Assembly (NCBI GenBank): GCA_902779575.1
Contig: CACZBW010000003.1
Span: 124,001 to 188,000, forward strand
DNA: 64,000 nt
Direction: 5' to 3'
From: an uncultured Lachnospiraceae bacterium
GTDB lineage: Bacteria > Bacillota > Clostridia > Lachnospirales > Lachnospiraceae
Each line of letters begins with the position of its first letter. Within the stretch, counting starts at the first letter, position 1. Position numbers and translations under genes: made by a program. The notes under the pieces were generated by a model. That model had not been told where the DNA came from, did no database searches, and saw only the letters and a program-made list of their open reading frames with translations. Shown in pieces: positions 17,009 to 44,992 of this stretch.

Positions 17009-17017
17009 ATAGGTAAG

Positions 17018-17092: not shown

Positions 17093-17115
17093 ATATTATT
17101 CACTTTCCAGTGAAA

Positions 17116-17189
<74 letters not shown>

Positions 17190-17199
17190 AGAATACAAA

Positions 17200-17270
17200 A
17201 GCGGGTGATGGGAATCGAACCCACGTATCCAGCTTGGAAGGCTGGTGTTCTACCATTGAACTACACCCGC
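17200..17270 (-). tRNA. tRNA-Gly (anticodon TCC)
   Basis: The acceptor GCGGGTG pairs perfectly with CACCCGC. The anticodon loop CTTCCAA gives TCC, and the T loop is GGTTCGATTCC. At 71 bases without CCA the length is normal for glycine. Confidence 0.94.
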
Positions 17271-17300
17271 ATATTAACATATCCTGTTGTAAGATGATAG

Positions 17301-17375
17301 TCGGGGTGACAAGATTCGAACTTGCGACTTCCTGCTCCCAAAGCAGGCGCTCTAGCCAAACTGAGCCACACCCCG
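17301..17375 (-). tRNA. tRNA-Pro (anticodon TGG)
   Basis: The acceptor CGGGGTG pairs with CACCCCG. The anticodon loop TTTGGGA gives TGG, and the T arm has AGTTCGAATCT. It is the first gene of the operon, about 25-30 bases behind the promoter. Confidence 0.94.
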
Positions 17376-22590: not shown

Positions 22591-23691
22591 TTATCGCTCT
22601 ATCTCCAGTCCCGCTTCTTCAGCAGCCCGGATCAGTTCCCTGTTCCCCTCATTCTGCGGGCCGAAGGAACGCAGGGTGCAGATCACCCTTTCGCAGCGGA
22701 GCAGAGCCCCGCAGGCATCGGCAGTATCCTCCGCGCGCACGGGTTCAAAAGCCGGACGCAGAAAGAGCTCATTTGCCAGGGCGCGGGCAGCCGCGGCGTC
22801 TGTGTCATTCTCATTCAGGACCCCTGTCGCAAAGGGAATCCCTTCCCTCTGCAGTCTGCGGTATACAGGCAGCGCGGATCCTCCTCCGCCAATCACAAAG
22901 ACACGGCTCTCTCCTCTGACAGCCGGCAGCTCCACGCCCCCTCCGGCGGGAATGAAGCTTCCTTCCGGAAGGTCATACAAAACTCTGATTTTCTCCTCCT
23001 GAAAGATCTCTTCCGGACTGCCCTGGTCCATAATCCGGTCCCCTTTCACACAGACCACCCTGTCCGAAATTTTCTGGGCCAGATCCAGCTCGTGGAGCGA
23101 CAGGATGACCGCGATCCGGCGTTCCCGTGTCATATTTCTCAAAAGGCCGAGAAATTCCAGCTTATGCCTCACATCCAGGAAAGAAGTCGGTTCGTCCAGC
23201 ACGATCAGCTCCGGTTCCTGGCAGAGCGCCCCGGCCAGCAGCACCCTCTGCCGCTGCCCGTCCGAAACCGCGCTGAAACTCCGGTCCCTGAGATCCCAGA
23301 TCTGCATCAGCTCCATGGCGGAACGCACCTTTTCCCGGTCCTCCTTCCCCAGGATCCCGAGCCTTCCGGTATAAGGATAGCGCCCTGCGGCGGCCGCCTC
23401 AAAACAGGTCACCAGTTCCGGCCTGGCGCGGTCGGTAAAAAGCAGCGCGAGACGCCGGGCCAGCTCATTTCCCGAATAGGACGCCATATCCCGCCCCTCC
23501 AGAAAAACAGTCCCTCCCAGCAGGGCAAGCTGCCTGCTGACGGAACGCAGAATCGTGGATTTTCCCGCTCCGTTCGGCCCGATCAGGGTCAGGATCTCCC
23601 CCCTGCGCACTTCGATGCGGATCCCCCGGATCAAAGCTTTCTTTCCATAGCCGACGGTCAGATCGTCTGTACGAAAATAAGAATCAGACAC
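22591..23691 (-). CDS. ABC importer ATPase, iron-chelate/cobalamin (FecE/BtuD) type
   Basis: The 366-residue ATPase has Walker A IGPNGAGKST, the signature VSDGQRQRVLLAGAL (a variant of LSGGQ), Walker B LIVLDEPTSFLD and the switch histidine in ILSLHELDLA. After the usual domain (about 1-255) there is an extra C-terminal region of about 110 residues with VFVIGGGGSALPVYRRL and GVLNENDTDA. It resembles a small Rossmann-like or regulatory domain. The permease, binding protein, two-repeat protein and exported chelatase genes lie upstream in the same orientation, so it should power that importer. The substrate is probably a corrinoid, heme-like tetrapyrrole or metal chelate. Confidence 0.9.
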   Translation of the reverse strand: MSDSYFRTDDLTVGYGKKALIRGIRIEVRRGEILTLIGPNGAGKSTILRSVSRQLALLGGTVFLEGRDMASYSGNELARRLALLFTDRARPELVTCFEAAAAGRYPYTGRLGILGKEDREKVRSAMELMQIWDLRDRSFSAVSDGQRQRVLLAGALCQEPELIVLDEPTSFLDVRHKLEFLGLLRNMTRERRIAVILSLHELDLAQKISDRVVCVKGDRIMDQGSPEEIFQEEKIRVLYDLPEGSFIPAGGGVELPAVRGESRVFVIGGGGSALPVYRRLQREGIPFATGVLNENDTDAAAARALANELFLRPAFEPVRAEDTADACGALLRCERVICTLRSFGPQNEGNRELIRAAEEAGLEIER

Positions 23692-23774
23692 GATACAATA
23701 TTATCCGGTTTCCTGCAGGAATTCCGGTTTTTCCTTTCTCCCGGGCTTCCGGGTTCTCTGCATGGCCGGGTCTT

Positions 23775-24794
23775 TCACCCCTCCCGCTTTTTCCGCAGCA
23801 TCATCCATATAACGACCGGAGCCCCGAAAATGGCAGTAACGGAACTGATGGACAGCTCTGTGGGCGCGAATACCGTTCTCGCGATCAGGTCGCACAGCAG
23901 GCAGAATACCGAACCTCCCAGAAAACTCGCGGGGATCACCAGAACCGGCCTGGAGGTACGGAGCAGGTTTCTTGTCAGATGGGGAACCGCGATCCCCACG
24001 AAGGAAACCGGCCCCGCAAAGGCCGTCACCGCGGCGCTGAGAACGCTCGAAAGCAGCACCAGCGCCGTCTGAAGAAGGCGGACATTAACGCCCAGACTGC
24101 GTGCGTAATTTTCTCCCAGCAGGTAAGCGCCGATCGGTTTGGACAGAAAAAATACCAGAAGGAAGGCCGGGAGGATAATCAGCGACATGGAAGACACATT
24201 TTCCCATGTCATCCCGGAGAAACTGCCCAGGGACCATCCGTGCAGATTCACAATATTGGAATCGTCCGCGAAAGTCACCACAAAATCCGTAACCGCCGAA
24301 CAGATATAGCCGATCATCACTCCGGCCACAATCAGGACAGACATGCGGTCTGTCCTGACGGAAACGGCAAGGACAAAGCACATGGAGAGCATCGCCCCTC
24401 CGAAAGCGGCCAGCACCATTTCAAAAGAGCTGACCGGACGGCCCTGGTTCAGAAGAAGAATCATGACAAGGGCCACCGCCAGCTTTGCTCCGGAAGAGAT
24501 TCCCAGGACAAAGGGTCCCGCGATCGGGTTATGGAAAAAGGTCTGCAGGGCAAAGCCCGACACCGACAGACCTCCGCCCAGAAGAACCGCGGCAAGAGCG
24601 CGGGGAAAACGGATCTGCCAGACAATATTACAGTTCGTCGGATCCCCTTCCCGCCGGAAAAGGATCCTGAAAATCTCGCCCGGAGCTATGGACACGGATC
24701 CGGAAGCGATGTTCACCAGCAGCAGAAGGAGCAGCGCGGCCAGCAGGAATGCAAAAACCGCCCCGCAGCGTTTATATCCGGAACCGTCCGCCAT
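23775..24794 (-). CDS. ABC importer permease, FecCD/BtuC type
   Basis: This 339-residue membrane protein belongs to the FecCD family that forms the channel for siderophore, heme or vitamin B12 uptake. About ten hydrophobic helices are visible, with the family blocks FPRALAAVLLGGGLSVSGFA, NPIAGPFVLGISSGA and PVSFVGIAVPHLTRNLL. The frame opens at a TTG (24827). ATG 24794 gives the normal N-terminus and has an AAAGGA site. The ATPase gene follows 83 bases later and the binding-protein gene ends 47 bases upstream, so the three form one import system. Confidence 0.92.
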   Translation of the reverse strand: MADGSGYKRCGAVFAFLLAALLLLLLVNIASGSVSIAPGEIFRILFRREGDPTNCNIVWQIRFPRALAAVLLGGGLSVSGFALQTFFHNPIAGPFVLGISSGAKLAVALVMILLLNQGRPVSSFEMVLAAFGGAMLSMCFVLAVSVRTDRMSVLIVAGVMIGYICSAVTDFVVTFADDSNIVNLHGWSLGSFSGMTWENVSSMSLIILPAFLLVFFLSKPIGAYLLGENYARSLGVNVRLLQTALVLLSSVLSAAVTAFAGPVSFVGIAVPHLTRNLLRTSRPVLVIPASFLGGSVFCLLCDLIARTVFAPTELSISSVTAIFGAPVVIWMMLRKKREG

Positions 24795-24841
24795 AAGAGC
24801 CGTCCTTTCTTTCCTTCCCGGCTGCAATCACGGCAGCCTCT

Positions 24842-26176
24842 TCAGTCCACATGATAGAGATATACGTACTCCCCGTCCCTGTCACCCGAAAGCATCCTGC
24901 TGATATCCACGATCAGGTCCGCAAGGCCGGTCGGCTTTTGGAACAGCGACTGTGTCGTGCACCAGACATTGCCCTCCTGTACCGCCCTGAAATCTTTCAG
25001 CACAGGCCCTTTGTCGAGCAGTTCATCCACACTGTGAATCGCGCCTGCAATCGTTGAATTATAGATCAGGTAATCCGCGTCCTTCGCCCCCGCGTAGAAT
25101 TCTTCCATCTGCAGGTTCACAGTAGAGAGCGCATTCTCCTCTTCTGCCCCGAGGTCAGGGAAAATATAGCTTCCCCCCGCCAGTTCTATCATGGCCGGGA
25201 CATAATCCTTCGCCTTGCGGACGGTGACCAGTCCCTGCTGGTTGATATTAAAAAAAGCCACCCGCTTCTCCGGCGGATGTTCTTCCGGGAGATCCCCGAC
25301 CCCTGACGTCTGTCCGAGAACCCGCCTTACTTTCTCCTCCATCTCATCAAAAAGCTCGTCCGCCTTTTCCTCGCTGTTCAGCAGGGCTCCGTAAAAGCGG
25401 ATCCACTCGCTTCTGCCGAGAGGATCTGTCTCATAGGAAGAATGCTCCACCAGTACCGGAATTCCGAATTTTTCCAGCATCTCCTTCACTTCCGGTTTAT
25501 GATAAATCATCGTCGATTCCAGGGCAAGATCACATCCGAGGGAGACGATTTTCTCGTAATCCGGAGCGCTGTATTTGCCGGCGTAGACCATCCTTCCTTC
25601 TTCCATGGCTCTGTTTGCGCCGTCTGAGTCCCATTCCCCCGGCTCTTCACAGGACAGGGTCACTCTGTCAAGCTCCTGCAGACAGTCAAAAAAATCCATT
25701 GCGCTTGTCGCCGCCAGATAGATGGAATCCAGAGGCTGAACGAGAACGGTATATTCAGGAGAGGCTTCGTCAGCCGGCAGGGCGGGAAGCTCCCCGCCCT
25801 CCGGAATCAGCAGAAAATCCCCCGTATCCCGGACTGAGATATACTTATATCCGCCCTCGTAGTAATCCACGCTGAACTGATCCGCGTGAAAAAGCCGCAT
25901 GCTCTCCTTATAGACAAGACCGGGGATCCGGGGGGCGTCTGTGCGGATAAAGACAGGCTGATCGTCCCCGAAAGCACTCTCCTGCCCGGAGCTCCCGCTT
26001 CTTTCCGCTTCCGGTCCCTGCCCTGCAGAGTCTGCGGAAGAAGCCGGCAAATCTGTCTCTGCCGCTTCAGTGCCGGCTGCAGGATCCGGCAGGTTCTCCG
26101 CAGCTGTAATGCCGGCAGGCCGGCAGAGAGCCGCCAGAAGCAGAAGCGCCGCCAGCAGCCCGGCCCGCCGCCTCAT
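24842..26176 (-). CDS. ABC importer substrate-binding protein (FecB/BtuF class)
   Basis: The 444-residue exported protein starts with a signal peptide (LLAALLLLAALCRPAG). It has an S/E/G-rich spacer and a class III periplasmic-binding fold with PLDSIYLAATSAMDFF, CDLALESTMIYHKPEVKE and VLVEHSSYETDPLGR. The cysteine after LLLLAAL could be a lipidation site, though the residue before it is not typical. The protein would capture the ligand outside the membrane and deliver it to the FecCD permease. It overlaps the upstream gene by four bases. Ligand identity is not visible; the riboswitch context favours a corrinoid or cobalt compound over a ferric siderophore. Confidence 0.88.
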   Translation of the reverse strand: MRRRAGLLAALLLLAALCRPAGITAAENLPDPAAGTEAAETDLPASSADSAGQGPEAERSGSSGQESAFGDDQPVFIRTDAPRIPGLVYKESMRLFHADQFSVDYYEGGYKYISVRDTGDFLLIPEGGELPALPADEASPEYTVLVQPLDSIYLAATSAMDFFDCLQELDRVTLSCEEPGEWDSDGANRAMEEGRMVYAGKYSAPDYEKIVSLGCDLALESTMIYHKPEVKEMLEKFGIPVLVEHSSYETDPLGRSEWIRFYGALLNSEEKADELFDEMEEKVRRVLGQTSGVGDLPEEHPPEKRVAFFNINQQGLVTVRKAKDYVPAMIELAGGSYIFPDLGAEEENALSTVNLQMEEFYAGAKDADYLIYNSTIAGAIHSVDELLDKGPVLKDFRAVQEGNVWCTTQSLFQKPTGLADLIVDISRMLSGDRDGEYVYLYHVD

Positions 26177-27207
26177 TCCGTCTCCTCAGCACGGACGGGC
26201 CTGGAGACCGTCAGCAGATAATCCTGCTCGACCTGCATTCCTTTGATCGCCACAGAATCCACAGTCATCGGAAGCGCGGTGTCAAATACGGAGAGCGGAA
26301 TCCGGAAGGACGATTTCTCCTCCCCCTCCAGCGCGTCATAGCGGACATCGCCGATCACGATATAATCATAATTGGAAGAGTCGAATACCAGCAGGCCTTC
26401 AGCCGCCCCTTCCTTCACTTCAACTTCCATGGGGGAAATCAGCTTCAGCCTTCCTTTTCCCTCCAGGGAGACCTCCGCCTCATAGATCCCGTCCTCCAGG
26501 GACAGATCCTCAATCCCGGTCCCCCGGGCATCAGGGAATGCGGAAGCAGGGATCATTGCGGACTGAAAGACCAGAGTTCTTGGATACCACTGTTCCTTCT
26601 TTTTTGAGAATGCAGCGCAGGGTACTCCACCGTCCAGCTTCTCCAGCGGGAAATGACGGAAGACCGGTTTCCCGTCCTCATTTTCCTCAGAATAAATAAA
26701 CTGCTCCGCGTCCGCCTGCGCGGCTTCTTCCGCGCTCCCCGGATAGAGATAGAGATAACCTTCCCCGTCCATAATCAGATCGGCATACATCGATCCATTC
26801 TCAACCGTCAGCAGCACAGCGCCGATTTTGAACATGGAAGAACTACTCTCGACTCCGATCTCATAGACGCCGTTCTCCAGCATATCCGCGCTCACGGTAT
26901 CCCCGCTCTCCTCCAGCTCCTCCACAGTCGTCATATCGGAGGCGTCGGCCACATGCGAAGTGTCAAGGGCTCTTGCCTCCTCTATTTTTTCCACCGGAAC
27001 AGACCAGTTCCCGATTCCCGTATCCTGCCCCGATGCCCCGATGCTTTCCGCAGGCATCTCTGTTTCTGTCTCAGAGGCCATAACGGGATTCCGGAATCCT
27101 CCCGAAGACAGCAGCAGGGCTGCCATACAGGCGGCCAGGAGCATTTTCCCTGCACACCCTGCAGATTCCGCAGGCATTTTCACACTTTCTTTCCTGATTC
27201 GCTTCAT
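26173..27207 (-). CDS. Exported protein with two related beta domains, function unknown
   Basis: I cannot name the family with confidence. The 344-residue protein has a signal peptide (MLLAACMAALLLSSG). Two related segments follow: LENGVYEIGVESSSSMFKIG to the mid-protein, and LEDGIYEAEVSLEGKGRLKL to the end. Each starts with an L-x-G-Y-E strand. The first ends with VFQSAMIPASAF, while the second has FRIPLSVFDTALPMTVDSV. The size and repeat style recall NEAT or similar surface beta-sandwich domains that bind heme, but the NEAT tyrosine motif is not clear. It lies between the chelatase and the binding-protein genes and overlaps the latter by four bases. A role as an extra ligand-binding or relay protein is plausible. 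Confidence 0.65.
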   Translation of the reverse strand: MKRIRKESVKMPAESAGCAGKMLLAACMAALLLSSGGFRNPVMASETETEMPAESIGASGQDTGIGNWSVPVEKIEEARALDTSHVADASDMTTVEELEESGDTVSADMLENGVYEIGVESSSSMFKIGAVLLTVENGSMYADLIMDGEGYLYLYPGSAEEAAQADAEQFIYSEENEDGKPVFRHFPLEKLDGGVPCAAFSKKKEQWYPRTLVFQSAMIPASAFPDARGTGIEDLSLEDGIYEAEVSLEGKGRLKLISPMEVEVKEGAAEGLLVFDSSNYDYIVIGDVRYDALEGEEKSSFRIPLSVFDTALPMTVDSVAIKGMQVEQDYLLTVSRPVRAEETE

Positions 27208-27233
27208 CCTTTTATCCTCATATCCATATCATG

Positions 27234-27307
27234 ACTGCTGCGCCAAAAGTCATGCCGTCAGAATTGTTTATACGATTTTTCAGGCCATACTTTTGCTGCC
27301 GCAATCA
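27234..27307 (+). repeat. Interspersed repeat family 2, diverged copy
   Basis: The stretch contains TGCGCCAAAAGTCATGCC, TTTATACGATTTTTCAGG and CCATACTTTTGCTGCCGC. It aligns with the copies at 16315-16394 and 29016-29092 but is more diverged. It lies in the 256-base gap between the chelatase and two-repeat protein genes. The same gap has a hairpin of GCGGCGCTG with CAGCGCCGC (27333-27371) without a clear T run. Confidence 0.6.
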
Positions 27308-27463
27308 TATCATGATCCACCCGCCATATTAAGCGGCGCTGCCCTCCCCGCCTTGAAGAGAACAGCGCCGCATCATATTCAGCCGCTGTTTCCGGCGGAC
27401 GAACCTTCCCGGGATCCGCCCTGGTGTCTGCTGTTCACAGCCAGTCTCCGGGTTACGGGATCT

Positions 27464-28450
27464 TTATCCGATCTGATCAAGCGCCTCCCGCACATGCTCC
27501 ACATAGATCTGCTGGATCTCCGGAACCTGGCCGAGGCCGTCCAGGATGCAGTCCACCTCATAGCCGGCGTCCTCAAACTGTGTCCGCAGAGAATCCGGCT
27601 CATCGCTGGCCATGTCGTTGTGGGCGTGATCTCCGGCCACGACCATCAGGGGATGAAGGACAACTTTCTTATATCCTTTTCCTTCTATCTCATTCAGGAC
27701 GCGCTCCGTGTTCCACTCCTCCGACTCAACCGTCGTGATATAGATATTTTTGAAGCCGCCGTCCGTCAGCGCCTGCTGAAGTTCCCCGTAATCCTTGTCG
27801 GAGTCCGCCTCTGTCCCGTGTCCCATATAGACCAGGGCAGTCTCGCCGTCGTTATAATTCTCTAAAAGACTGGCCAGGATCGGAGCAACCTGATCGTAAT
27901 TGGTGTCATCATTATAGCCAAAGAGCGGTTTTGTGACAGCCACGTTTTCAAACTCATCTGCATACTCCGCCACAGCGGCGACGATATCCTCATATTCATA
28001 GCCTTCCATCAGATGAGTCGGGCAGACGATCAGATTCCTGACCCCGTTGTCGACTGCTCTCTGCAGGCCTTCATCCATATCATCGATCACGACGCCGTCC
28101 CTGTTTTTCACATGATCGATAATGATATTGGCCGTAAAAGCTCTCCTGACGCTCCAGTCCGGAAATGCCGCGGCAACAGCGCGCTCAATACCGCCGACAG
28201 TGGCATAGCGCGAATAGTTGTAGCTGGTTCCGAAAGAAACGACAAGGATCTCCTTCTCCCCGATCTCATCCTGGTTAAGGGGATTGTCCATGGAAGCGTC
28301 TCCGGTCATATAATTCTCTTCCTCTTCCTCCGCTTCCGCAAATTCCTGTACTCCTTCAGGCTCCGTTTCGGCGGCGAAAGCCGTTCCCGAAAGCATCAGG
28401 GCCGATACGGCGGCCGCTGCCATCATTTTTTTCCAGCTACTGTTTTTCAT
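27464..28450 (-). CDS. cbiK: Exported CbiK-type sirohydrochlorin cobaltochelatase
   Basis: The 328-residue protein is a class II chelatase of the CbiK family, which inserts cobalt into sirohydrochlorin in the anaerobic B12 pathway. Metal-binding residues match the family: H211 in YMGHGTEAD, E242 in TTVES and H275/H277 in VAGDHAHND. Unlike the cytoplasmic enzyme it has a signal peptide (about 1-27, ending GTAFA-AET) and a very acidic spacer before the domain. An exported CbiK is known in Desulfovibrio, where transport or heme roles were proposed. A GGAGGAGG site precedes the start. It is the first gene behind a cobalamin riboswitch and heads an ABC importer operon. It may load, strip or carry metal and tetrapyrroles outside the membrane. 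Confidence 0.9.
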   Translation of the reverse strand: MKNSSWKKMMAAAAVSALMLSGTAFAAETEPEGVQEFAEAEEEEENYMTGDASMDNPLNQDEIGEKEILVVSFGTSYNYSRYATVGGIERAVAAAFPDWSVRRAFTANIIIDHVKNRDGVVIDDMDEGLQRAVDNGVRNLIVCPTHLMEGYEYEDIVAAVAEYADEFENVAVTKPLFGYNDDTNYDQVAPILASLLENYNDGETALVYMGHGTEADSDKDYGELQQALTDGGFKNIYITTVESEEWNTERVLNEIEGKGYKKVVLHPLMVVAGDHAHNDMASDEPDSLRTQFEDAGYEVDCILDGLGQVPEIQQIYVEHVREALDQIG

Positions 28451-28633
28451 CTTTTTCCTCCTCCTGCCGGCAATACAGATTAATGCCGGTAAAATCTGCT
28501 GCCCGGCTCCTGTTAATGGATTATTTTACTGAATGATACTGATCCGGCTGAAGACTGTACTGTCTGCGGAGGACTGCATGCTGCAGAAAAATGCAGCTGC
28601 GCCGGACAGAAAAAGACGCATCCCCCTGTCCGG

Positions 28634-28672
28634 AAAAAAAAGGAAACCGCTGCCCCGGGGCAACGGTTTCCT
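28634..28672 (-). terminator. Riboswitch-linked intrinsic terminator
   Basis: On the minus strand GGAAACCG pairs with CGGTTTCC around a GCCCCGGGG core, and eight T residues follow directly. It sits about 90 bases past the cobalamin riboswitch and about 185 bases before cbiK. It is therefore the likely expression platform that stops transcription when cobalamin is bound. Confidence 0.85.
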
Positions 28673-28759
28673 GCAGTTACATTTCATTCTGCCCGTACAA
28701 CCAGTTACTCGTGGTCCGGGCTTCCGGATCAGGCCGGCATAAGATACGGAAGCCCTGTA

Positions 28760-28922
28760 CACCGGCAGGCAGGTCTCCTGGCTCACGGTGATCCCGTCCG
28801 CGCGCCTTCCCGGTTTCCCAGTGGCATATGCGCAGACCAAGCCGTATACAGTGACGAGTTCGCACAGGCATCAAACCTGTTTCCCTATTATCCGCAGCCC
28901 ATGCAGCGGCACCTGCCGGTTT
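28760..28922 (-). promoter_or_regulatory. Cobalamin (AdoCbl-type) riboswitch
   Basis: Reading the minus strand, the conserved blocks appear in the right order: CCGGCAGGTGCC, ATAGGGAAACAGG, the GTGCGAAC segment, the B12-box-like GCCACTGGGAAACCGGGAAG, and the closing AGCCAGGAGACCTGCC. The ends CCGGCAGG and CCTGCCTGCCGG close the outer helix. Cobalamin riboswitches usually repress B12 synthesis or corrinoid and cobalt uptake genes. Here it precedes a terminator, then cbiK and the ABC importer, all in the same direction. The exact ends are estimated to within a few bases. Confidence 0.93.
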
Positions 28923-29015
28923 GTCTTCAGTTGGATGAACTAACCTTACCATAAAGACGAAAGCCGCGCAAGTACAGCAGTTTCCGGCAGCTGAGCGTGC
29001 TGCCCGGATATTATT

Positions 29016-30088: not shown

Positions 30089-30100
30089 TCCTTTCCCCCC

Positions 30101-32167: not shown

Positions 32168-32827
32168 TCATTCTCTTCCTGCAGCCATATACAGAAGCGC
32201 ATTGCAGATACACGCCGCAATATTGCTCCCGCCTTTCCTTCCGCGGGCGGCAATACAGGGAACATCCAGGCTGAGGATCCGTTCCTTTGCCTGGACAACA
32301 TTGACAAAACCGACGGGTACCGCAATAACCAGAGCCGGTTTCAGAAGCCCCGCCTGAATCTGTTCCGCAAGGCGCAGCAGGGCAGTCGGCGCATTTCCGA
32401 CCGCGTAGATGCAGGAGGCCCCGCCTGCGGCTCCTTCCGTCCGCAGAGCCTTGTCCATGCTGACGGCCGCTCTGGTGGTCTCCTTTTCCTTTGCTTCAAG
32501 CGCCACGTCCTCATCCGACATAAAGCAGCAGGTCCTGCCGCCCAGCTTCTGCAGGCTCTTTTTATTGATGCCCGCCTGGGCCATGCGGGTGTCCGTGATA
32601 ATGACCGCCCCGCTCCGCAGGGTCTCAAGGGCTTTTGGAATTACATCCCCAGTAAATACCAGATTCTTCGCATAGTCAAAATCCGCGGAGGTATGGATGC
32701 AGCGCAGCACCACTGGAGCCGTCTCTTCCGGAAGGACAATCCCCATCTGTTCCAGCTCCCTGCCTATAATCTCAAAGCTTCTTTTCTCAATCTCCGAAGG
32801 CTTAACCCATTCCGCTTCCGGTCTCAT
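32168..32827 (-). CDS. cbiC: Cobalt-precorrin-8 methylmutase CbiC
   Basis: CbiC moves the methyl group from C11 to C12 to give cobyrinic acid. The 219-residue protein shows the catalytic histidine region RCIHTSADFDYAKNL and the family blocks IITDTRMAQAGI, CFMSDEDVA, SCIYAVGNAPTAL and PVGFVNVVQAKE. A GAGGGGAG ribosome site precedes the ATG. It is the last biosynthetic gene of the operon, 83 bases behind cbiP. Confidence 0.95.
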   Translation of the reverse strand: MRPEAEWVKPSEIEKRSFEIIGRELEQMGIVLPEETAPVVLRCIHTSADFDYAKNLVFTGDVIPKALETLRSGAVIITDTRMAQAGINKKSLQKLGGRTCCFMSDEDVALEAKEKETTRAAVSMDKALRTEGAAGGASCIYAVGNAPTALLRLAEQIQAGLLKPALVIAVPVGFVNVVQAKERILSLDVPCIAARGRKGGSNIAACICNALLYMAAGRE

Positions 32828-32910: not shown

Positions 32911-34503
32911 TCACGCAATACCCTTCCATAATATCTCATAGATCCGCTTCATATCAAGGCTCTCCCGAAGTCCCACAGCCAGTTTCACGTACTGCGCCTC
33001 TTTATAGGTCCGGTAATCAACCGTCCTCACATCCGACGGGCGGATCCCGCGCCTTTCGCAGAGAGCGGATACGATTGCCTCCCGGACCCCTGCCAGGTCA
33101 AACAATCCATGAATATAGCTGCCGCAGACGTCGCCGCAGACGCAGCCCCCGCTCCGGCTTTCGCCCGGACCATTCCCATGGCTCTCAGAAAACTGCAGGA
33201 AACTGTCTCCTCCCGTCCGCTCCGTCCTGCCCATATGGATCTCGTAACCCTCAAATTCTTTTCCTGCCAGGCCGCGGAAGAGGCCGCCTGTTTCCCCGAA
33301 ATATCCGTGAACCCTGCTTCTGGTTTTTGCTCCGGAAAAAACAGTGGAAAGCGGAAGAAGGCCGAGCCCGCGCATCTGTCCTCCGCTCTCCACGCCCAGA
33401 GGATCGCTCAGCGTCTGCCCGAGCATCTGGTAACCGCCGCACACCCCGAATACCGCGCTTCCGGCCGCGTGCGCCTTAAGAAGGGCGGCTTCCATGCCGC
33501 TCTCGCGCAGCCATCTCAGATCGCCCATGGTATTCTTGCTCCCGGGAAGGAAGATCAGGTCCGGGACGCCAAGCCTGGAGGGCCGGTCCACATAGCGCAA
33601 GGACACTCCCTCCACATATTCAAAAGGATTAAAATCCGTAAAATTCGAAATTTTCGGAAGACGGATCACGGCAAGGTCCAGGACAGGGACCTTCCCTTCC
33701 CCTGCTTCCGGGTCCTGCCGGACAGACTCTCCTCCTGCACAAGTGCCCGTGATCAGGGGCCTTTTCTCCGCTGCCGGCGCAAACCGCCCGCTCAGGCTGT
33801 CTTCATCCTCGAGATCCACGCTCAGATAGGGCGTGACTCCGACAACCGGGATTCCGGTCAGCTCTTCCAGCATTTCCACTCCCGGGTCCAGGATCGTCCG
33901 GTCTCCCCGGAACTTGTTGATGATCAGGCCTTTCACCAGAGCCCGCTCCTTTTTTTCAAGAAGCGCGACAGTGCCGTAGAGCTGGGCAAATACGCCTCCG
34001 CGGTCGATATCCCCCGCCAGCAGGACCGGCGCATGCGCAAGCTCCGCCATCCCCATATTGACGATGTCATCCTTTTTCAGGTTGATCTCCGCGGGGCTCC
34101 CTGCCCCTTCCAGAACGATAATGTCATATTCCTCATCAAGCGAACGGTAGGCGCGCATGATTTCCGGGATCAGTTTCTTCTTAAAGGAGAAATAGTCCCG
34201 GGCGGAATAATTCCCGAGCACTTCCCCGTTTACAATCACCTGGCTCCCGGTATCGTTCGTCGGCTTGAGCAGGATGGGATTCATCCGGACAGAAGGCGCG
34301 ATCCCGCAGGCCTCCGCCTGCATCACCTGAGCCCGCCCCATTTCAAGGCCTTCCTCCGTGATAAAGGAATTCAGGGCCATGTTCTGGGATTTAAAAGGAG
34401 CGACCTTATATCCGTCCTGCCGGAAGATCCTGCACAGGCCGGCAGCAAGCAGGCTTTTCCCTGCCCCGGACATGGTCCCCTGAATCATGATCGCCTTCGC
34501 CAC
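32911..34503 (-). CDS. cbiP: Cobyric acid synthase CbiP/CobQ
   Basis: This glutamine- and ATP-dependent enzyme amidates four side chains of adenosyl-cobyrinic a,c-diamide. The N-terminal P-loop-like part reads [16 protein letters not shown]. The glutaminase half has the nucleophilic cysteine in [12 protein letters not shown] and a late histidine in SYIHGLFD. The open frame starts at ATG 34584, overlapping the upstream stop. However, GTG 34503 has an AAAGGAG site six bases away and gives the exact family N-terminus, so it is preferred (530 residues). A hydrophilic insert ([19 protein letters not shown]) lies in the middle. Confidence 0.93.
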
Positions 34504-34583
34504 ACTGAACTCCTTTCCCTGTACCGGCTGCAGTGCCCCGTACTGACTTCTGTCCCCCGGAATCGTAAAGCTCTCCCTGCGCA

Positions 34584-35693
34584 TCAGCGAAATTGCCGCT
34601 CCTGCGCCCGGCCTTCTGCCGGCAGTTCGAAAGCGGAAGGCGTTTTATCTTCCCGGATTACTGCTTCCAGACAGGCGCAGAGCGCCTCGTTCTCCTCTCT
34701 TCTTTTCACCGCAATCCGGAAACAGCCCGGAGCAAGTCCTCTGCAGCTGCCGCAGTCGCGGATCAGGATGCCTTTTTCCGCACAGCGCTCCGCAAGGTCC
34801 TCCGGGCCTTCAAAAAACAGATAATTGGCCTGCGAGTCGTAAAGCAGAAATCCCATGGCCGACAGCTTTTCCCTGAGAAAAAGGCGCTCCGTACAGATCA
34901 GCTTCCCTGCCCTCTCCAGATAACCGCGCTCTTTCAGGGCTGCGATGCCCGCCAGCTGCGCAGGCAGCGATACATTCCAGGTCTGAAGGCCGGCCCGGAT
35001 TCTTAGCAGGAGTTCCCGGCAGGAACTGACGGCATAGCCGAGTCTCAGTCCTGCCATCGCATAGCTCTTGGTAAATGCCCTCAGGATCATCAGTTTCGGA
35101 TTCTCCGGAAGCTCTTTCAGAAGGGTCGCCTGAGCCGGGTCCTGAAGCAGGGCGTTGAAACACTCATCCAGAACGAGGAGCACTCCCTTTTCTCTGCAGT
35201 ATTCCGCAATCTTCCGCAGCAGCTCATGGTCTGTCAAAAGTCCGGTCGGATTGGCGGGATTGCAGAGAAATACCATATCGATATCCGGCGATATATAATC
35301 CAGAATATCTTCCCCGATCCGGAATCCCCTGCTTCTAAGGCAGCTGTAGTAGCGGATTTCCGCGCAGCCGGCGCTTTTAAGCGCCCGCTCATACTCTGAA
35401 AAGGCAGGCAGGGCGATCAGAGCCCGCCGCGGTTTCAAGGCCTGGGCGGATGCCATGATGAGTTCCGCCGCTCCGTTCCCGCAGAGAAAATACTCCTCCG
35501 GCAGCCTGCAGACTTCAGAAAGTGCCCTTTTCAGTTCCCTGCACTGCGCGTCCGGGTAGCGGTCAGCCAGTTCCGACGCCTGCCGGACGGCGGCCTTCAC
35601 GGAATCCGGCATACCGAGGGGATTGAGATTTGCTGAGAAATCCAGCCGGTAATCCCCTGTGTAGATCTCTCCGCCATGCTCCTGGTACAGCAT
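34584..35693 (-). CDS. cobD: Threonine-phosphate decarboxylase CobD-type aminotransferase
   Basis: This 369-residue PLP enzyme resembles histidinol-phosphate aminotransferase. It starts with [20 protein letters not shown], the sequence style of CobD enzymes, which decarboxylate L-threonine phosphate to the aminopropanol linker. The PLP lysine lies in [16 protein letters not shown], and [10 protein letters not shown] is also visible. ATG 35693 has GGGAGGAGG upstream; the longer frame from 35735 lacks family support. It sits between cbiB and cbiP, the genes that use or precede its product, which fits linker attachment. Confidence 0.92.
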
Positions 35694-35724
35694 CCGCAGC
35701 CTCCTCCCGAATGTCTTTCTCCGG

Positions 35725-36699
35725 TCAGTACACAAGCCCGCGCAGAACGCCCATCAGCAGCAGTCCCAGCACGGAAGCAGTAAGCATCAGCCTGTTCGCG
35801 CGGGGAATATCCTCAGGAGCAATCCGGCGGATATCGTCCCCGATGGTCTTTTTCTTTGTAAGCTTCCCAAAATAAAAAGCATCTCCCGCCAGCTGCAGGT
35901 TCAGGGCGCCCGCCATGACGGATTCCGTCTGCGCGGAATTCGGACTTGCATGATTTCTCCGGTCTCTTCTCCAGATCCGGTACGCCCCCCGCGCATCCAC
36001 CTTCAGCAGAGCGCCGGCGGCAATCATAAGGAGGGCGCTGAGCCTGGAGGGCAGGTAATTCAGGATATCATCCAGCCGTGCCGCAGCCGTCCCGAAGAAA
36101 CGGTAGCGCTCATTCTTATAGCCAACCATGGAATCCATGGTATTCACCGCCTTGTAGATCCAGCCGGCGGCCGGTCCTCCGATCATCAGGTAAAACATGG
36201 GGGCAATGACCCCGTCCGAAGTATTTTCCGCGATGGTCTCCACCGCTGCCTTCGTAACTCCGGCCTCATCCAGATGAGCCGTATCGCGCCCCACTATCAT
36301 CGAGACCGCCCTTCTCGCCCCGGGCAGGTCTTTTTCTTTCAGCCTGTCGTATACCTTCATGGACTCATCCCGCAGGGATCTTGCCGCGAAAAGCCAGTAA
36401 TTCAGGAGAACGGATACCAGAAAATACGCAGCGTTTCCGCCTTTTGCGGCAAAAAACAAAAGCCCGTAAACGGCAAGGCCGGTGAATGCCGCTGTGCAGA
36501 CGGCCAGACATGCGCCGGCCGCGCGCTCCCCCTTTTTTCCGCCAGGAAAGAGCTTCCTCAGCAGCTGCTCAAGACCGGTAATCAGAAGGCCGATCAGCCG
36601 GACCGGATGATACAGCCAGTGCGGATCTCCCGCCAGCAGATCAAGGGCGAATCCCGCCAGAACCGCATACAGTGTATAATCCGCTCTTCCTCCGGACAC
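35725..36699 (-). CDS. cbiB: Adenosylcobinamide-phosphate synthase CbiB
   Basis: The 324-residue membrane enzyme attaches aminopropanol (or its phosphate) to adenosylcobyric acid. Visible family blocks are LDLLAGDPHWLYHPVRLIG near the start, GRDTAHLDEAGVTKAAVETI, AENTSDGVIAPMFYL and NAQTESVMAGAL-like SPNSAQTESVMAGALNL. About five membrane helices are present. The start is GTG with an AAGGAG site nine bases upstream. It lies between cbiA and cobD in the operon. Confidence 0.94.
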   Translation of the reverse strand: MSGGRADYTLYAVLAGFALDLLAGDPHWLYHPVRLIGLLITGLEQLLRKLFPGGKKGERAAGACLAVCTAAFTGLAVYGLLFFAAKGGNAAYFLVSVLLNYWLFAARSLRDESMKVYDRLKEKDLPGARRAVSMIVGRDTAHLDEAGVTKAAVETIAENTSDGVIAPMFYLMIGGPAAGWIYKAVNTMDSMVGYKNERYRFFGTAAARLDDILNYLPSRLSALLMIAAGALLKVDARGAYRIWRRDRRNHASPNSAQTESVMAGALNLQLAGDAFYFGKLTKKKTIGDDIRRIAPEDIPRANRLMLTASVLGLLLMGVLRGLVY

Positions 36700-36757: not shown

Positions 36758-38473
36758 TCAGAATTCCAGACGGTTCGCTGCTTCCCTCAATTTTCTGAAA
36801 TCAAGACAGGCCCTGAGAAAACGTTCCGGAAGCTTCGGATTGGAATAATAGTACAGATGCGGGAATCCCGCAAACAGATTATCTTTCAGCTGCATGCAGG
36901 CCCAGCTCCGGTTTTTCCATTTTCTGGACGCCGTGCAGGCGGATCCGTTATCTGTCGTATCATAGTAATGAAATTCATGGCCCCGTATCTCGCCAAGCCC
37001 CTCCAGGCGCAGCCACTGCTCCAGGGTTCTCGGAGCGGGATCAGGCCGGTAAAGATCCCTTTCACAGATCCGGTCCGGTTCCGGAGTCCGGTAAAAAGGC
37101 CTGCCCGAATCCCGCTTCTGCCCGGAAACGCACTCCTTTCTCAGGCTCAGGGACAGGTAGCCGAACCGGATCAGTCTCCCAGTCCGGAAGGCTCTTCCGT
37201 GCAGCACGCCTGCCGCCGGAAATACACGCCCGTTCTCATCCTCCAGCTCCTCCATGAGATACATGAAACCGCCGCATTCCGCCATCGTCGGAAGTCCCCC
37301 GCGCACAGCTGCGGACAGTTCGCGGAGCATGTCCGGATTCGCTGCCAGTTTTTCCGCATACAACTCCGGATATCCCCCGTAAAGAAGCAGGCCTTCCGAA
37401 CCGGGAGGCAGGCCTCTGTCCGAAAGCGGGCTGAAAGGCACAAGCTCGGCTCCCATCTCTTCCAGCAGTGCCAGATTCTCTGCGTAGGCAAAACAGAAGG
37501 CTTCGTCCTGCGCCAGCGCAATCCGGATCTTCTTCCCTGAATTCGTGCTTCCGGCCGGCTGCTTTCGCTGCAGACATGGGTTCGCAGTTTCCGGGAGCAG
37601 ATCTTTTTCCCGGACGCAGCCTTCTTCTTTCTGTCCGCAAAGCGCTTCCCCGGATGGCCGGCAGTCCCCTTCCGCCTCCCGCGCCAAAGCGTACAGACCG
37701 TCCAGATCAACGGTCTTTTCCAGCTGCGCGGCAAAGCTGCCGAGCTTCTCCTTCAGCCCCTCCAGCTCATCCGGCATGATCAGGCCAAGATGACGGCTTT
37801 TCAGTTCCAGCGCCTCCAGCTTCGGCACGTAACCGAAGACCCGGATCTGCTTTGCCGATCCGGCCCCCGGATCAGCAGGGTCCCCGTTTCCGGCCTCTGC
37901 GCTCCCGTCCTTCTGTCCGCTTCCGTCCGGAGTTCTTTCATTGAGTTCTCTCTCAATCGCTTCCTTCAGTACCGGATACAGCATCGGGCTTACGCGGTTC
38001 AGAATCACGCCTCTGATCCGGCTTGGCTTCCGGAAATCGGCAAACCCCCGCAGCGTAGCCGCGGCGGACAGACTCATTCCTTTCGCATCCACGATCAGAA
38101 CGACGGGAGTTTTCGTCACCCGGGCCAGATCGTAGCTGCTGGCCGTATCGCTGCTCCCGCCCAGACCGTCATAATAGCCCATCACGCCTTCCAGGATCGA
38201 CAGGTCGCTGCCTGCTGCATATCGGCGCAGCAGATATCCTGTCGTCTCCTCATCGGTAAAAAACGTGTCCAGATTCGCCGAAGCGCTGCCGAGCACTTTC
38301 CTGTGAAACATGGGGTCGATGTAATCCGGCCCGCATTTGAAGGACGACAGTTTCAGTCCCCGCCTGCTGAACGCCTCCAGAAGCCCGCAGCTGATCAGGG
38401 TCTTGCCGCTTCCGCTGGAGGGAGCCGCAATCATAAGCCTCGGATAATCTGTCTTTCTTTGTCCCTGATCCAT
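36758..38473 (-). CDS. cbiA: Cobyrinate a,c-diamide synthase CbiA
   Basis: CbiA amidates the a and c side chains of cobyrinate using glutamine and ATP. The P-loop MIAAPSSGSGKT, the CGPDYIDPMFH block and the glutaminase cysteine in MAECGGFMYL are present. At 571 residues it is about 110 longer than common homologues. Hydrophilic inserts rich in G, S, E and K appear after ELNERTPD, after EGDCRPSGEAL and near the C-terminus. ATG 38473 has a GGAGGGG site; the extra upstream frame to 38542 has no family likeness. It lies between the CbiJET fusion and cbiB. Confidence 0.93.
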   Translation of the reverse strand: MDQGQRKTDYPRLMIAAPSSGSGKTLISCGLLEAFSRRGLKLSSFKCGPDYIDPMFHRKVLGSASANLDTFFTDEETTGYLLRRYAAGSDLSILEGVMGYYDGLGGSSDTASSYDLARVTKTPVVLIVDAKGMSLSAAATLRGFADFRKPSRIRGVILNRVSPMLYPVLKEAIERELNERTPDGSGQKDGSAEAGNGDPADPGAGSAKQIRVFGYVPKLEALELKSRHLGLIMPDELEGLKEKLGSFAAQLEKTVDLDGLYALAREAEGDCRPSGEALCGQKEEGCVREKDLLPETANPCLQRKQPAGSTNSGKKIRIALAQDEAFCFAYAENLALLEEMGAELVPFSPLSDRGLPPGSEGLLLYGGYPELYAEKLAANPDMLRELSAAVRGGLPTMAECGGFMYLMEELEDENGRVFPAAGVLHGRAFRTGRLIRFGYLSLSLRKECVSGQKRDSGRPFYRTPEPDRICERDLYRPDPAPRTLEQWLRLEGLGEIRGHEFHYYDTTDNGSACTASRKWKNRSWACMQLKDNLFAGFPHLYYYSNPKLPERFLRACLDFRKLREAANRLEF

Positions 38474-38599
38474 TCTCTCCCCTCCAGGACCCGGCACTGC
38501 CGCTGTATGCTTCCCGCTGCAGCGTTTGCCGGTCCCGAACATTTTAAGCCCGGACAGGCAGATTCTTCTTCCTTCCGGAGCGGAATACGCACCTTTGTT

Positions 38600-40729
38600 T
38601 TATACCCTGCCTTCGGCGGCGATCAGATAAACCGGATTCTGCCCTGTCATCAGATGACTGTTCCCTGCTTTTTTTGCCCTGGCAGCTGTAACCGACACAA
38701 TCTCCGGCTCTTCGAAGGGCATTGCGGAAAGACAGCGCAGGGCCTCCGAGAGAGTCTCCAGCGTGACCGCGCTGATTACAAGACGCAGCTGCGGGTTTTT
38801 CCGGTAAAGGGCTTTAAGAATCTCCTTCAGATTCCCGCTGCTCCCCCCGATAAAGGCCCGGTCGGGAACCGGGAGTTCTTCGAAGGCTTCCGGCGCCATC
38901 CCTCTGATCACGGTCAGATTGGAGGCCCCAAGGGCACACTGGTTCTTCCGGATCAGATCCGCCGCATCCTCCCTGCACTCTATGGCGTACACATGACCTC
39001 CGGCCGCCTGTAAGGCGCACTCAACGGACACAGATCCGGTTCCGGCTCCGACGTCATAGATGATACTGTCCTTTTCCAGCTGCAGAAAAGACAGGACCAG
39101 CGCCCGGATTTCGCGTTTCGTCATCGGAACCGTCTTCCCGTTTTCCGCCGTGCCGTTCCCGGCAATGATCCGTGAAAAACGCTCATCACCAAGTCCCGCG
39201 CTCACCGTCCGGTCAGGCGCGGGATTCGTAATCAGCACCGCCGTAAGGTCATCAACTTCCGCCGGAGCTGTTTCCGCCTGCCCTGAAATCTGTACGGAGC
39301 TCCCTGAAAGAAATTCTTCCGGCCTGCCCCGCAGAATCCGCTCCTGAGGGGAGGACAGACTGCAGCCTGCTTCCAGCAGGACATGCCCGAGTTCAAAACG
39401 GATCAGGTCCCTGCACAGATCCTCAAAACTGCTTTTTCCGCCTGTCAGGACAAATACTTTTCTGTTTGTCCGGACCGCTCCGATCACGTTCTGGCTGCAT
39501 CCGTGCAGGCTGGTCAGCACAGCGTCCTCCCAGCCGGTCTTCAGAACTGCGCAAAGAGCCGACACAGAAGAAATACCGGGAAGAACCCGCACGTCCTCTG
39601 AGGCAAATGTCTTCATCAGCTGCCTGGCTCCGCTGTAAAAACCGATGTCGCCGGACAGCAGCACAGTAACCTTTTCAAATTCGGGATGTTCTTTTACAAA
39701 AGCGGAAATCCGGTCCGCGCGGTATTCGCAGAATGCCGGTTTCCCCGCATCCCTTGGGGAAAGGCAGGAGAAAGCTGCTTTCAGCATCCGTTCTGCCCCG
39801 ATCAGGACGTCCGCCTGATGCAAAGCATCCAGTACATCCTGCGTCATCCCGGAGGGACTCCCCATACCGATCCCGGCAAGGGTGATCCTCCTGCGCACCG
39901 TAAATGGAAGTTCTTCTGCAAGAATCCTGCGCAGCTCAGGCAGATCCGCCGCAGACTGCATTGTTCCTGGCAGTCCCATTTCTCCCTGTCCGGGGAAATC
40001 CGTCTTCTCCTGCCTGCCGTCCCCCGGTCTCTCCACTACGATCAGTTTTACTCCCGTATTCCGGGCGGCGGCAAGTTTTTCCTGAAATCCCCCTTCTTTT
40101 CCGGACTCTTTGGTGACCATATAAGAAGCGTGTATCTCCCTAAGCAGCGCCTCGTTCATTTCCCTGCTGAAGGGTCCCTGCATGCAGATCAGATTTTTCC
40201 CTGAAAAGCCAAGCCCCACTGCTTTATTTACAGATTCCGGTACCGAGAGGACTCTGGCTGTGACCCTTCTTTTATAGTCCTTCAGCTTCGTATATGTTTC
40301 CAGATCCCTGCTTCCTGTGGCAGCCAGGACAGCTCCCTCTGTCCCCTGCAGATAATCGACAGCCTTCTCCAGAGACGGAACTTTCACGCAGTCCTCCGTG
40401 ATCTCCCCGGAAGCTCTCTGCAGGCGGATATACCTGCAGCCGCATCTTTTACAGGCCTTTGCGATATTCTCTGATGCCAGGGCCGCGTAAGGGTGCGTTG
40501 CATCTACAACTATCGATATATTCTCCTGCTCCATAAGAGCCTGCATCTCATCTTCCGCAAGACGCCCCGCCCGGATCCTGATATGGCTGAAGCCGCCCTG
40601 CTCAAGCAGGCTTCCGCCGTAATCCGTAGCGGTACAGACCAGGGCAGGGACTTCCTGGCGGTCAAGATACTCCGCCAGCTCCCTTCCCTCCGTTGTCCCC
40701 GCAAATATCAGAATTCTCTTTTCCGTCAA
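38600..40729 (-). CDS. CbiJ-CbiE-CbiT fusion: three corrin-ring enzymes in one chain
   Basis: The 709-residue protein joins three steps. Residues 1-250 are cobalt-precorrin-6A reductase (ILIFAGTTEGRELAEYL, ATGSRDLETYTKL). About 280-480 are CbiE, the C5 methyltransferase (LAGIGMGSPSGMTQDVLDA, VLLSGDIGFYSGA, LPGISSVSAL). About 520-700 are CbiT, the C15 methylating and C12 decarboxylating unit (IYDVGAGTGSVSVECA, RAFIGGSSGNLKEIL). CbiE-CbiT fusions (CobL) are common; adding CbiJ in front is less so. The start is TTG with GGGGGT nearby. It overlaps the end of cbiH by 68 bases in another frame, a long overlap that suggests coupled translation. Linkers are rich in D, G, E and Q. Confidence 0.92.
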   Translation of the reverse strand: MTEKRILIFAGTTEGRELAEYLDRQEVPALVCTATDYGGSLLEQGGFSHIRIRAGRLAEDEMQALMEQENISIVVDATHPYAALASENIAKACKRCGCRYIRLQRASGEITEDCVKVPSLEKAVDYLQGTEGAVLAATGSRDLETYTKLKDYKRRVTARVLSVPESVNKAVGLGFSGKNLICMQGPFSREMNEALLREIHASYMVTKESGKEGGFQEKLAAARNTGVKLIVVERPGDGRQEKTDFPGQGEMGLPGTMQSAADLPELRRILAEELPFTVRRRITLAGIGMGSPSGMTQDVLDALHQADVLIGAERMLKAAFSCLSPRDAGKPAFCEYRADRISAFVKEHPEFEKVTVLLSGDIGFYSGARQLMKTFASEDVRVLPGISSVSALCAVLKTGWEDAVLTSLHGCSQNVIGAVRTNRKVFVLTGGKSSFEDLCRDLIRFELGHVLLEAGCSLSSPQERILRGRPEEFLSGSSVQISGQAETAPAEVDDLTAVLITNPAPDRTVSAGLGDERFSRIIAGNGTAENGKTVPMTKREIRALVLSFLQLEKDSIIYDVGAGTGSVSVECALQAAGGHVYAIECREDAADLIRKNQCALGASNLTVIRGMAPEAFEELPVPDRAFIGGSSGNLKEILKALYRKNPQLRLVISAVTLETLSEALRCLSAMPFEEPEIVSVTAARAKKAGNSHLMTGQNPVYLIAAEGRV

Positions 40730-43357: not shown

Positions 43358-43380
43358 CGTTTTTCCTTTTCCTTCTGTCT

Positions 43381-44802: not shown

Positions 44803-44992
44803 AGTCCGCACCTCCTCTGTATTTTCAGCTTTTATACTGCAGAAACAGCTCCTTAATCCGGCTTCTTAATCCGCTTCGGTTATTTTACCCGATTCTCCGG
44901 AGACATACAAGGAGTGGGGACGTCAGAAACCGATGCCCCGGTTATGTGTGAGCACGACGTGTACGGCCATACTTCCGGCGTCGCTGCCACAT

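Follow-up and report, generated by a model that had tools for sequence, protein, structure and literature searches.

A cobalamin-riboswitch operon with a predicted exported CbiK, a NEAT-like protein and an ABC importer: a candidate system for salvage of early corrin-ring precursors

The window analyzed here, a stretch of 64,000 nucleotides from an uncultured Lachnospiraceae bacterium, carries an operon that we read, with a probability of roughly 0.55, as a B12-repressed system that captures an early precursor of the corrin ring, has cobalt inserted into it outside the cell and imports the product. The substrate and the chemistry in this reading are the parts that we infer. Evidence comes from the operon itself, from the adjacent corrin genes and from a survey of CbiK loci in related genomes.

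Operon layout and predicted control

On the minus strand, the riboswitch is followed in order by the terminator, CbiK, the two-repeat protein, the binding protein, the permease and the ATPase.

28751..28931, minus strand: cobalamin riboswitch aptamer RF00174 (cmscan score 107.1 bits; gathering score 31.5)
28641..28672, minus strand: intrinsic terminator in the gap between aptamer and first gene (14-pair stem and T run)
27464..28450, minus strand: predicted exported class II chelatase of the CbiK family with an intact active site (PF06180, 258 bits)
26173..27207, minus strand: exported two-repeat protein, tandem NEAT-like (AlphaFold2 model and Foldseek)
24842..26176, minus strand: exported class III substrate-binding protein (PF01497; family related to IsdE and Lmo2184; fold compared)
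23775..24827, minus strand: FecCD-type permease, nearest BtuC (PF01032)
22591..23691, minus strand: ABC ATPase, extended at its C terminus by about 110 residues (profile match; corrinoid ATPase and FecE about equal)

A preliminary description of this DNA had placed a B12 riboswitch and terminator ahead of the operon and a two-repeat exported protein within it, and these elements are all confirmed. RF00174 has a single match in the whole source draft genome, at the operon, and B12 riboswitch control of the importer genes is predicted from the upstream riboswitch and terminator. A survey of gene neighborhoods, which the same description had proposed, found that the layout recurs: judged from flanking DNA, at least 59 of 80 named CbiK relatives have a permease and at least 52 of 80 a separate two-repeat frame. 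This recurrence rules out a chance arrangement of genes. Fusions of CbiK with NEAT, of NEAT with the binding protein and of all three together were also found in the family survey.

An exported CbiK with an intact active site

PF06180 matches CbiK over its full length (cut-off 26.2 bits), and a Sec signal peptide assigned by eye predicts its export. The catalytic histidines H145 and H207 of Salmonella CbiK align with H211 and H275, in agreement with the exported CbiK with intact metal ligands first described. Loss of the active site in close relatives, named beforehand as evidence that would tell against the system, was not seen: the site is kept in 83 of 83 exported CbiK, which rules out a degenerate active site among the relatives. 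The operon CbiK is the sole CbiK match in the source draft genome (E ≤ 0.001). It scores 202 bits against the cut-off of 400 of the sirohydrochlorin cobaltochelatase equivalog NF047852, so its function is not deducible from its name alone; cobalt insertion into sirohydrochlorin is its putative activity, as judged from sequence. Its sequence relatives in the PDB include FetB (9b86) and a D. vulgaris chelatase (2xvx), which we take to be Desulfovibrio CbiKP.

The family survey started from 217 CbiK matches in 171 genomes, of which 141 genomes and 172 loci, plus the window, were kept at cut-offs of at least 90% completeness, at most 5% contamination and at least 600 bases. Raw calls of a signal-peptide script sorted the 172 loci into 77 with a signal and a NEAT neighbor, 86 with neither and 9 that were discordant; by hand, L130, L258, L270, L273, L275 and L280 were set as exported and L145, L150 and L170 as cytoplasmic. 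The resulting 82 exported loci represent 81 distinct frames in 80 genomes. A NEAT partner adjoins 80 of these 82 loci against 1 of 90 cytoplasmic ones, a count that is circular for L130, L270 and L275, which have no predicted signal and were called exported partly on the NEAT neighbor; without the hand overrides, a NEAT neighbor is seen at 77 of the 82 loci with a signal and at 4 of the other 90. In the CbiK phylogeny that the preliminary description had suggested, a quick gene tree for which no root was inferred, 2 changes suffice to part exported from cytoplasmic forms, where shuffles take 58, and the smallest supported set holding the window contains 76 exported members and 1 cytoplasmic member.

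The NEAT-like protein and the case for heme

The AlphaFold2 model of the two-repeat protein (mean pLDDT 84) gave 17 Foldseek matches at E ≤ 0.001, every one of them NEAT-bearing, and the modeled fold is a tandem NEAT-like one. The NEAT fold is familiar from heme-binding surface proteins. At the sequence level, PF05031 was matched by 36 of the 45 members of the two-repeat alignment (E up to 10; best 1.4e-8) and not by the window's own protein (E up to 10), a PDB sequence search with that protein alone found no match up to E 10, and the alignment profile reached NEAT weakly (E 0.024). A profile comparison of the binding protein with the NEAT-like protein gave no useful result. We take YxxxY to be the NEAT heme-ligand motif, with tyrosine as the canonical ligand; at the ligand position, placed by eye from this motif, repeat 1 has lysine in 45 of 45 members and repeat 2 has histidine in 35 of 45 and tyrosine in 6 of 45, a departure that weighs against the precursor-capture reading.

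It is improbable, in our view, that the operon instead acquires heme, iron or siroheme, with the NEAT-like protein taking heme and the exported CbiK running in reverse to release iron. Such a role would suit the modeled NEAT fold and the IsdE model TIGR03659, which has matches in 17 of the 41 aligned binding proteins and none in the window's own protein. The Isd heme system, known for sortase anchoring and Fur control, likewise combines a NEAT-fold surface protein with a binding protein of the IsdE-related family; the operon differs from it in its B12 riboswitch, its exported chelatase and its linkage to a corrin cluster. FetB is labeled heme-binding in the PDB and is presumably the same protein as IhtB of P. 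gingivalis. Excerpts of the literature describe IhtB as stripping iron from hemin (PMC3764172) and as a putative ferrochelatase/reverse ferrochelatase (PMC13227078). No report tying a NEAT domain to heme in Lachnospiraceae was found in the open-licence literature. A role in heme uptake sits poorly with the B12 riboswitch found at 72 of the 82 exported loci and with the distribution of exported CbiK, which occurs in 80 of 139 genomes with a corrin pathway and in 1 of the remaining 107 (tallied by hand, with four or more TP_methylases defining a corrin genome, and with G130 and G208, which dropped out, counted among the 139 as not exported). The preliminary description had left the choice among extracellular metalation, demetalation and cobalt scavenging, each coupled to uptake; the evidence favors metalation with uptake, and this distribution is less easily matched with demetalation to obtain iron or with scavenging of cobalt alone.

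Corrin genes without the early steps

About 3 kb upstream of the operon, on the same strand, lies a corrin cluster that runs from CbiD to CbiC without CbiL.

43381..44811, minus strand: CbiD (profile match)
42587..43423, minus strand: CbiF (profile match)
41487..42590, minus strand: CbiG (best model, below its cut-off)
40662..41465, minus strand: CbiH (profile match)
38600..40729, minus strand: CbiJ-CbiE-CbiT fusion (profile match)
36758..38542, minus strand: CbiA/CobB (profile match)
35725..36699, minus strand: CbiB (profile match)
34584..35735, minus strand: CobD-like threonine-phosphate decarboxylase (best model, below its cut-off)
32911..34584, minus strand: CbiP/CobQ (profile match)
32168..32827, minus strand: CbiC (best model, below its cut-off)

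The preliminary description had not linked this cluster to the operon, and had also left the absence of the early steps and the NEAT fold unconnected. In the source genome, a 75-contig draft that is 95.3% complete, SUMT (E ≤ 1e-55), CbiL (E 1e-35) and HemB (E 1e-20) were not found; its four TP-methylases are CbiF, CbiH, CbiE and the rRNA methylase RsmI, and a MetH-like protein is encoded. A single PF13241 match, which passes the Pfam cut-off with 42 bits (2.4e-10), weighs against the precursor-capture reading. With neither SUMT nor HemB found and with CbiD to CbiC kept, the genome fits the pattern of a salvager, and the bacterium seems, from its sequence, to have retained just the later half of the B12 ring pathway.

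The same pattern is common among the surveyed genomes whose only CbiK is exported. SUMT was found in 50 of 52 cytoplasmic-only, 19 of 53 exported-only and 27 of 27 genomes with both forms, CbiL in 52 of 52, 30 of 53 and 25 of 27, and HemB in 35 of 52, 11 of 53 and 22 of 27, in classes defined by CbiK matches; a CbiX-type chelatase (PF01903) may be present as well, and exported CbiK may not be the sole cobaltochelatase. In 34 of the 53 exported-only genomes SUMT and HemB are missing and later steps are kept; the 19 that carry SUMT make the link between export and SUMT loss a partial one. Precorrin-2 dehydrogenase (E < 1e-20) was matched in 1 of 34 exported-only genomes without SUMT, in 19 of 19 with SUMT and in 27 of 27 cytoplasmic-only genomes tested, the latter taken from the 52 in list order and not at random. 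G135, with a strong match to this enzyme and no SUMT, counts against the pattern.

There is a slim chance that the upstream genes only seem missing, through draft assembly or divergence, and that the pathway is complete. The fragmented, incomplete source draft and the strictness of some search thresholds leave room for this. Fewer genes are also seen with the general model, however, where TP_methylase counts are 4 or 5 in SUMT-lacking genomes against the usual 6; G232 (one contig) and G072 (five contigs), both listed as 100% complete, lack SUMT and HemB; and among genomes that are at least 98% complete, SUMT is found in 30 of 30 cytoplasmic-only against 9 of 30 exported-only ones.

Tests of whether the link between SUMT and export is phylogenetically independent are weak. 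On the best tree, the 83 exported rows require a minimum of 20 changes for SUMT and 18 for CbiL. If pairs are restricted to well-supported branches, 6 remain; SUMT accompanies possession of a cytoplasmic CbiK in 2.8 of them and runs counter to it in 0 (sign test, median p 0.25), and CbiL has no trend (1.4 versus 1.4); with just 6 pairs, we claim no significance for linked loss.

The importer and finished corrinoids

The importer had been described as of FecB/FecC/FecE type; an importer is present, and its permease proved nearer to BtuC (220 bits) than to FecC (167 bits). The ATPase scores nearly equally with the corrinoid ATPase model (204.5 bits) and FecE (203.6 bits). None of these four models reaches its cut-off, which is 334 bits for BtuC and 537 bits for the corrinoid ATPase.

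These affinities, the B12 riboswitch and the fact that the permease is the only FecCD match in the source draft genome would all suit an ordinary BtuFCD-like importer of finished corrinoids (cobalamin or cobinamide), in which CbiK and the NEAT-like protein aid binding or protect cobalt. We regard this as unlikely: it leaves unexplained both the invariant chelatase site and the retention of CbiD-F-G-H-J-E-T-C despite the loss of SUMT and HemB, and the missed BtuC and corrinoid-ATPase cut-offs also weigh against it.

Relation to known systems

The combination of riboswitch, CbiK-type chelatase and importer is already published in Desulfovibrio and Porphyromonas, according to excerpts of the papers concerned. 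In Desulfovibrio a B12-element precedes cbiK-cbiL and btuCDF, in an account whose excerpted part does not address export (PMC545781), and in O. alaskensis a riboswitch lies near cbiKP (PMC11124144). The Desulfovibrio CbiKP locus resembles the operon in its B12-element, CbiK-type chelatase and importer; unlike the operon, it includes cbiL, belongs to a Gram-negative periplasm and has no NEAT partner mentioned in those excerpts. P. gingivalis, which according to one excerpt is missing the steps that lead to precorrin-2 (PMC6461909), has a B12 riboswitch upstream of ihtA, a chelatase gene second in the iht locus and an ABC transporter (PMC3764172). Its ihtABCDE locus shares riboswitch, related chelatase and ABC transporter with the operon and differs in its TonB receptor and its assignment to heme. 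With the Desulfovibrio and P. gingivalis loci in print, the initial claim of an undescribed acquisition system was too strong. In the open-licence literature we found neither a NEAT partner for such loci nor a tie between them and missing early B12 genes.

Precursor salvagers have been defined by complete corrin and loop pathways with early steps missing, and Table 2 of that study lists CbiL/CobI in 87.1% of 201 salvager genomes, with no CbiL/CobI annotation in 12.9% (PMC6461909). The carriers described here likewise keep the later corrin steps and lack early ones; they differ in that, of the 34 exported-only genomes without SUMT, 18 are without CbiL as well, and the excerpted study names no uptake system.

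A proposed salvage route

In the precursor-capture reading that we favor, a shortage of B12 would lead the NEAT-like protein to capture a free or wrongly metalated isobacteriochlorin, for example sirohydrochlorin or, in genomes without CbiL, the C20-methylated version of that ring. Cobalt would be added at the outer face by the exported CbiK, import of the cobalt complex would fall to the binding protein and the ABC transporter, and CbiH onward would finish the corrin, with cobalt and ring entering the cell as one molecule. Genomes lacking CbiL would need the C20-methylated ring or another enzyme, a requirement that weighs against this reading.

More broadly, and tentatively, the operon could belong to an unrecognized route of B12 salvage, by which many gut and rumen Firmicutes that abandoned their own ring synthesis capture an early isobacteriochlorin outside the cell, have it cobaltated by a secreted chelatase that sits on a NEAT relay, and take up metal and ring as a unit. 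The CbiKP locus of Desulfovibrio and the iht locus of Porphyromonas, at present classed as a heme system, would represent variants of this route, and members lacking CbiL would use the C20-methylated intermediate, implying cross-feeding of unfinished B12. Such a route is a candidate answer to how precursor salvagers obtain a ring that they cannot make, and it could account for why Desulfovibrio and Porphyromonas have exported relatives of CbiK. If it exists, unfinished B12 rings would be traded in gut communities and cobalt insertion would be possible outside the cell. For the bacterium studied here, the operon may explain life without the first half of the B12 ring pathway.

The riboswitch operon and its products

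The riboswitch operon named in the preliminary description is present with all of its parts, each in the position that it had been assigned. Its control elements are the following:

28931-28751, minus strand: cobalamin riboswitch (107.1 bits)
28672-28641, minus strand: strong terminator

Five genes on the same strand accompany them: those for CbiK, the two-repeat protein and a class III binding protein, and those for a FecCD permease and an ABC ATPase. The first three products carry N-terminal signal peptides, as judged by eye.

The chelatase is assigned to CbiK on the basis of its domain and predicted active site, while scoring below the cobaltochelatase equivalog cut-off. In an alignment its H211 and H275 correspond to the histidines designated H145 and H207 in the literature (PMC7689651). 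The metal ligands had been described as intact, and a search for loss of the site in relatives bore this out: all 83 of the 83 exported CbiK, the window's copy counted, share S72, H146, E152, H211, E242, H275 and D279. The two histidines are also conserved in 88 and 87, respectively, of 90 cytoplasmic CbiK.

By itself the two-repeat protein matched no Pfam or NCBIfam model. An alignment of the window's copy with 44 relatives (45 members) was used as input for AlphaFold2, which returned two beta-sandwich domains with a mean pLDDT of 84. When this model was submitted to Foldseek, all 17 matches at E<=0.001 were NEAT-bearing entries, among them IsdH, IsdB, IsdX1, IsdX2 and Hbp2, and PF05031 was matched by 36 of the 45 members (E up to 10; best 1.4e-8). 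In repeat 1 every member of the alignment has S123, M125, F126, K204, W207 and Y208; in repeat 2 a histidine stands four positions before Y330 in 35 of 45.

The importer is not classed as BtuFCD. The IsdE model was matched by 17 of 41 members of the binding-protein alignment, the window's own copy not among them, and the profile matched Listeria Lmo2184 (5joq) at E 2.9e-8. The structural model found matches across class III binding proteins; binders of siderophores and of heme were included, and BtuF ranked 49th. The permease scored 220 bits for BtuC versus 167 for FecC and the ATPase 204.5 bits for the corrinoid ATPase versus 203.6 for FecE, all below cut-offs. The ATPase also has an extension, aligned by the corrinoid ATPase model and not by the FecE model:

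residues about 250-366 of the 22591-23691 product, minus strand: C-terminal extension past the ABC domain

Since the alignment to the corrinoid model (PRK09536) reaches residue 341, haloarchaeal BtuD may have the extension as well. Some relatives of about 248-265 aa apparently do without it, judging from length.

Neighborhoods and fusions in relatives

Among 80 named loci, the permease was found in at least 59, a separate NEAT-like frame in at least 52 and one or more corrin genes in at least 35. Neighbors are also fused in several combinations: CbiK with NEAT (L045 and L051 among the examples), NEAT with the binding protein (L034, L035, L038, L042, L052 and L067) and all three in L077. Locus L089:2-3001 is a single open frame with three consecutive CbiK matches followed by NEAT-like sequence, and a 946 aa frame in genome G229 (L270 and L280) combines two matches to CbiK with one that is NEAT-like. 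These natural fusions support a reading in which the three exported proteins would work in sequence on one substrate.

CbiK occurs in 171 of 299 genomes of the family. A signal-peptide script and nine hand listings sorted 172 loci from the better genomes (>=90% complete, <=5% contaminated) into 82 exported and 90 cytoplasmic. A NEAT neighbor was present at 80/82 exported versus 1/90 cytoplasmic loci (77/82 versus 4/90 without the hand listings); the sole cytoplasmic case is L287 in G230, where a CbiK without signal peptide adjoins a NEAT-like protein. An upstream riboswitch was found by pattern at 62 of 82 exported loci, with Rfam adding 10 of the remaining 20, and by pattern at 6 of 90 cytoplasmic loci; in a sample of 20 cytoplasmic loci Rfam detected one of cobalamin type at 3. 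By our hand tally, exported CbiK is present in 80 of 139 corrin genomes (four or more TP_methylases) versus 1 of 107 others.

Some cytoplasmic CbiK, such as L170, lie in frames of about 560-580 aa with a preceding extension of about 310 aa, which in L170 has an ATPase-like P-loop and is possibly a cobalt ABC ATPase fusion. Genome G003 has a strong NEAT-module match and five TP_methylases without a CbiK match. In several genomes NEAT-like matches fall within open frames that are about 900-1800 aa long. Several of these matches are on other contigs or distant from the listed CbiK, which suggests additional large surface proteins of NEAT-like fold.

Apparent absence of the first half of the corrin pathway

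An anaerobic corrin cluster, which had not been connected to the operon, lies on the same strand:

44811-32168, minus strand: CbiD, CbiF, CbiG, CbiH, CbiJ-E-T fusion, CbiA, CbiB, CobD, CbiP and CbiC
30831-32003, minus strand: cation diffusion facilitator family transporter, immediately following the corrin cluster
29108-30799, minus strand: Peptidase_M15 and YkuD cell-wall proteins
45030-46109, plus strand: second YkuD protein, with fn3 domain, at the cluster's far end

CbiG, CobD and CbiC are best model matches, each below the model's cut-off. The transporter and the two cell-wall enzymes separate the cluster from the riboswitch. In L032, which is the nearest named relative and has an 86% identical CbiK, CbiP and CbiC likewise lie upstream of riboswitch and module. 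Elsewhere in the window, seven tRNA genes cluster at 16577-17375 (minus strand).

The window's own genome (75 contigs, 95.3% complete) has one B12 riboswitch, one CbiK match and one FecCD permease. Its four TP_methylases are CbiF, CbiH, CbiE and the rRNA enzyme RsmI, and it gave no match for CbiL at E<=1e-35, SUMT at E<=1e-55 or HemB at E<=1e-20. From these searches, it retains the pathway from cobalt-factor III onward, and a means of making the starting ring was not detected. The best of three PF13241 matches (2.4e-10, 42 bits) is above the Pfam cut-off and far below strong ones (>=79 bits).

The same pattern was examined in the genomes that have at least four TP_methylases. SUMT was present in 50/52 cytoplasmic-only, 19/53 exported-only and 27/27 genomes with both CbiK types, CbiL in 52/52, 30/53 and 25/27, and HemB in 35/52, 11/53 and 22/27 (Fisher p for cytoplasmic-only versus exported-only, relatedness ignored: 1e-11, 1e-8 and 2e-6). 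At >=98% completeness the SUMT contrast persists (30/30 versus 9/30). All 34 exported-only genomes without SUMT also lack HemB, and 18 of them, the window's genome included, lack CbiL. Precorrin-2 dehydrogenase (E<1e-20) was found in one of these 34 (G135), in 19/19 exported-only genomes with SUMT and in 27/27 cytoplasmic-only genomes tested. G232, an exported-only genome in one contig, lacks SUMT and HemB and has a CbiL match slightly below the model's cut-off. Relatedness was addressed by the CbiK gene tree alone, in whose few supported pairs CbiL shows no trend. The 19 exported-only genomes that do have SUMT must be accounted for differently, for example by CbiX or by dual use.

Proposed role in corrin synthesis

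B12 shortage would permit expression of the operon, since known cobalamin riboswitches behave in this way. The NEAT-like protein would collect a ligand, presumably a tetrapyrrole, into which exported CbiK would insert cobalt, probably outside the cell. With a putative hand-over between the proteins, the importer would take up the cobalt complex and the retained corrin enzymes would complete the corrin. The genome also encodes a MetH-like protein, which scores under the MetH cut-off in the portion examined and suggests that cobamide has a use here.

Precedents come from the literature. In Desulfovibrio a B12-element controls cbiK-cbiL and btuCDF (PMC545781), and in O. alaskensis a riboswitch lies near cbiKP (PMC11124144). 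In P. gingivalis, said to be without the steps to precorrin-2 (PMC6461909), ihtA (a BtuB homologue) is preceded by a B12 riboswitch, and the ihtB product is a chelatase said to strip iron from hemin (PMC3764172). Taking these together, a link of our own, we suggest that the exported chelatases of these precedents may serve corrin making too.
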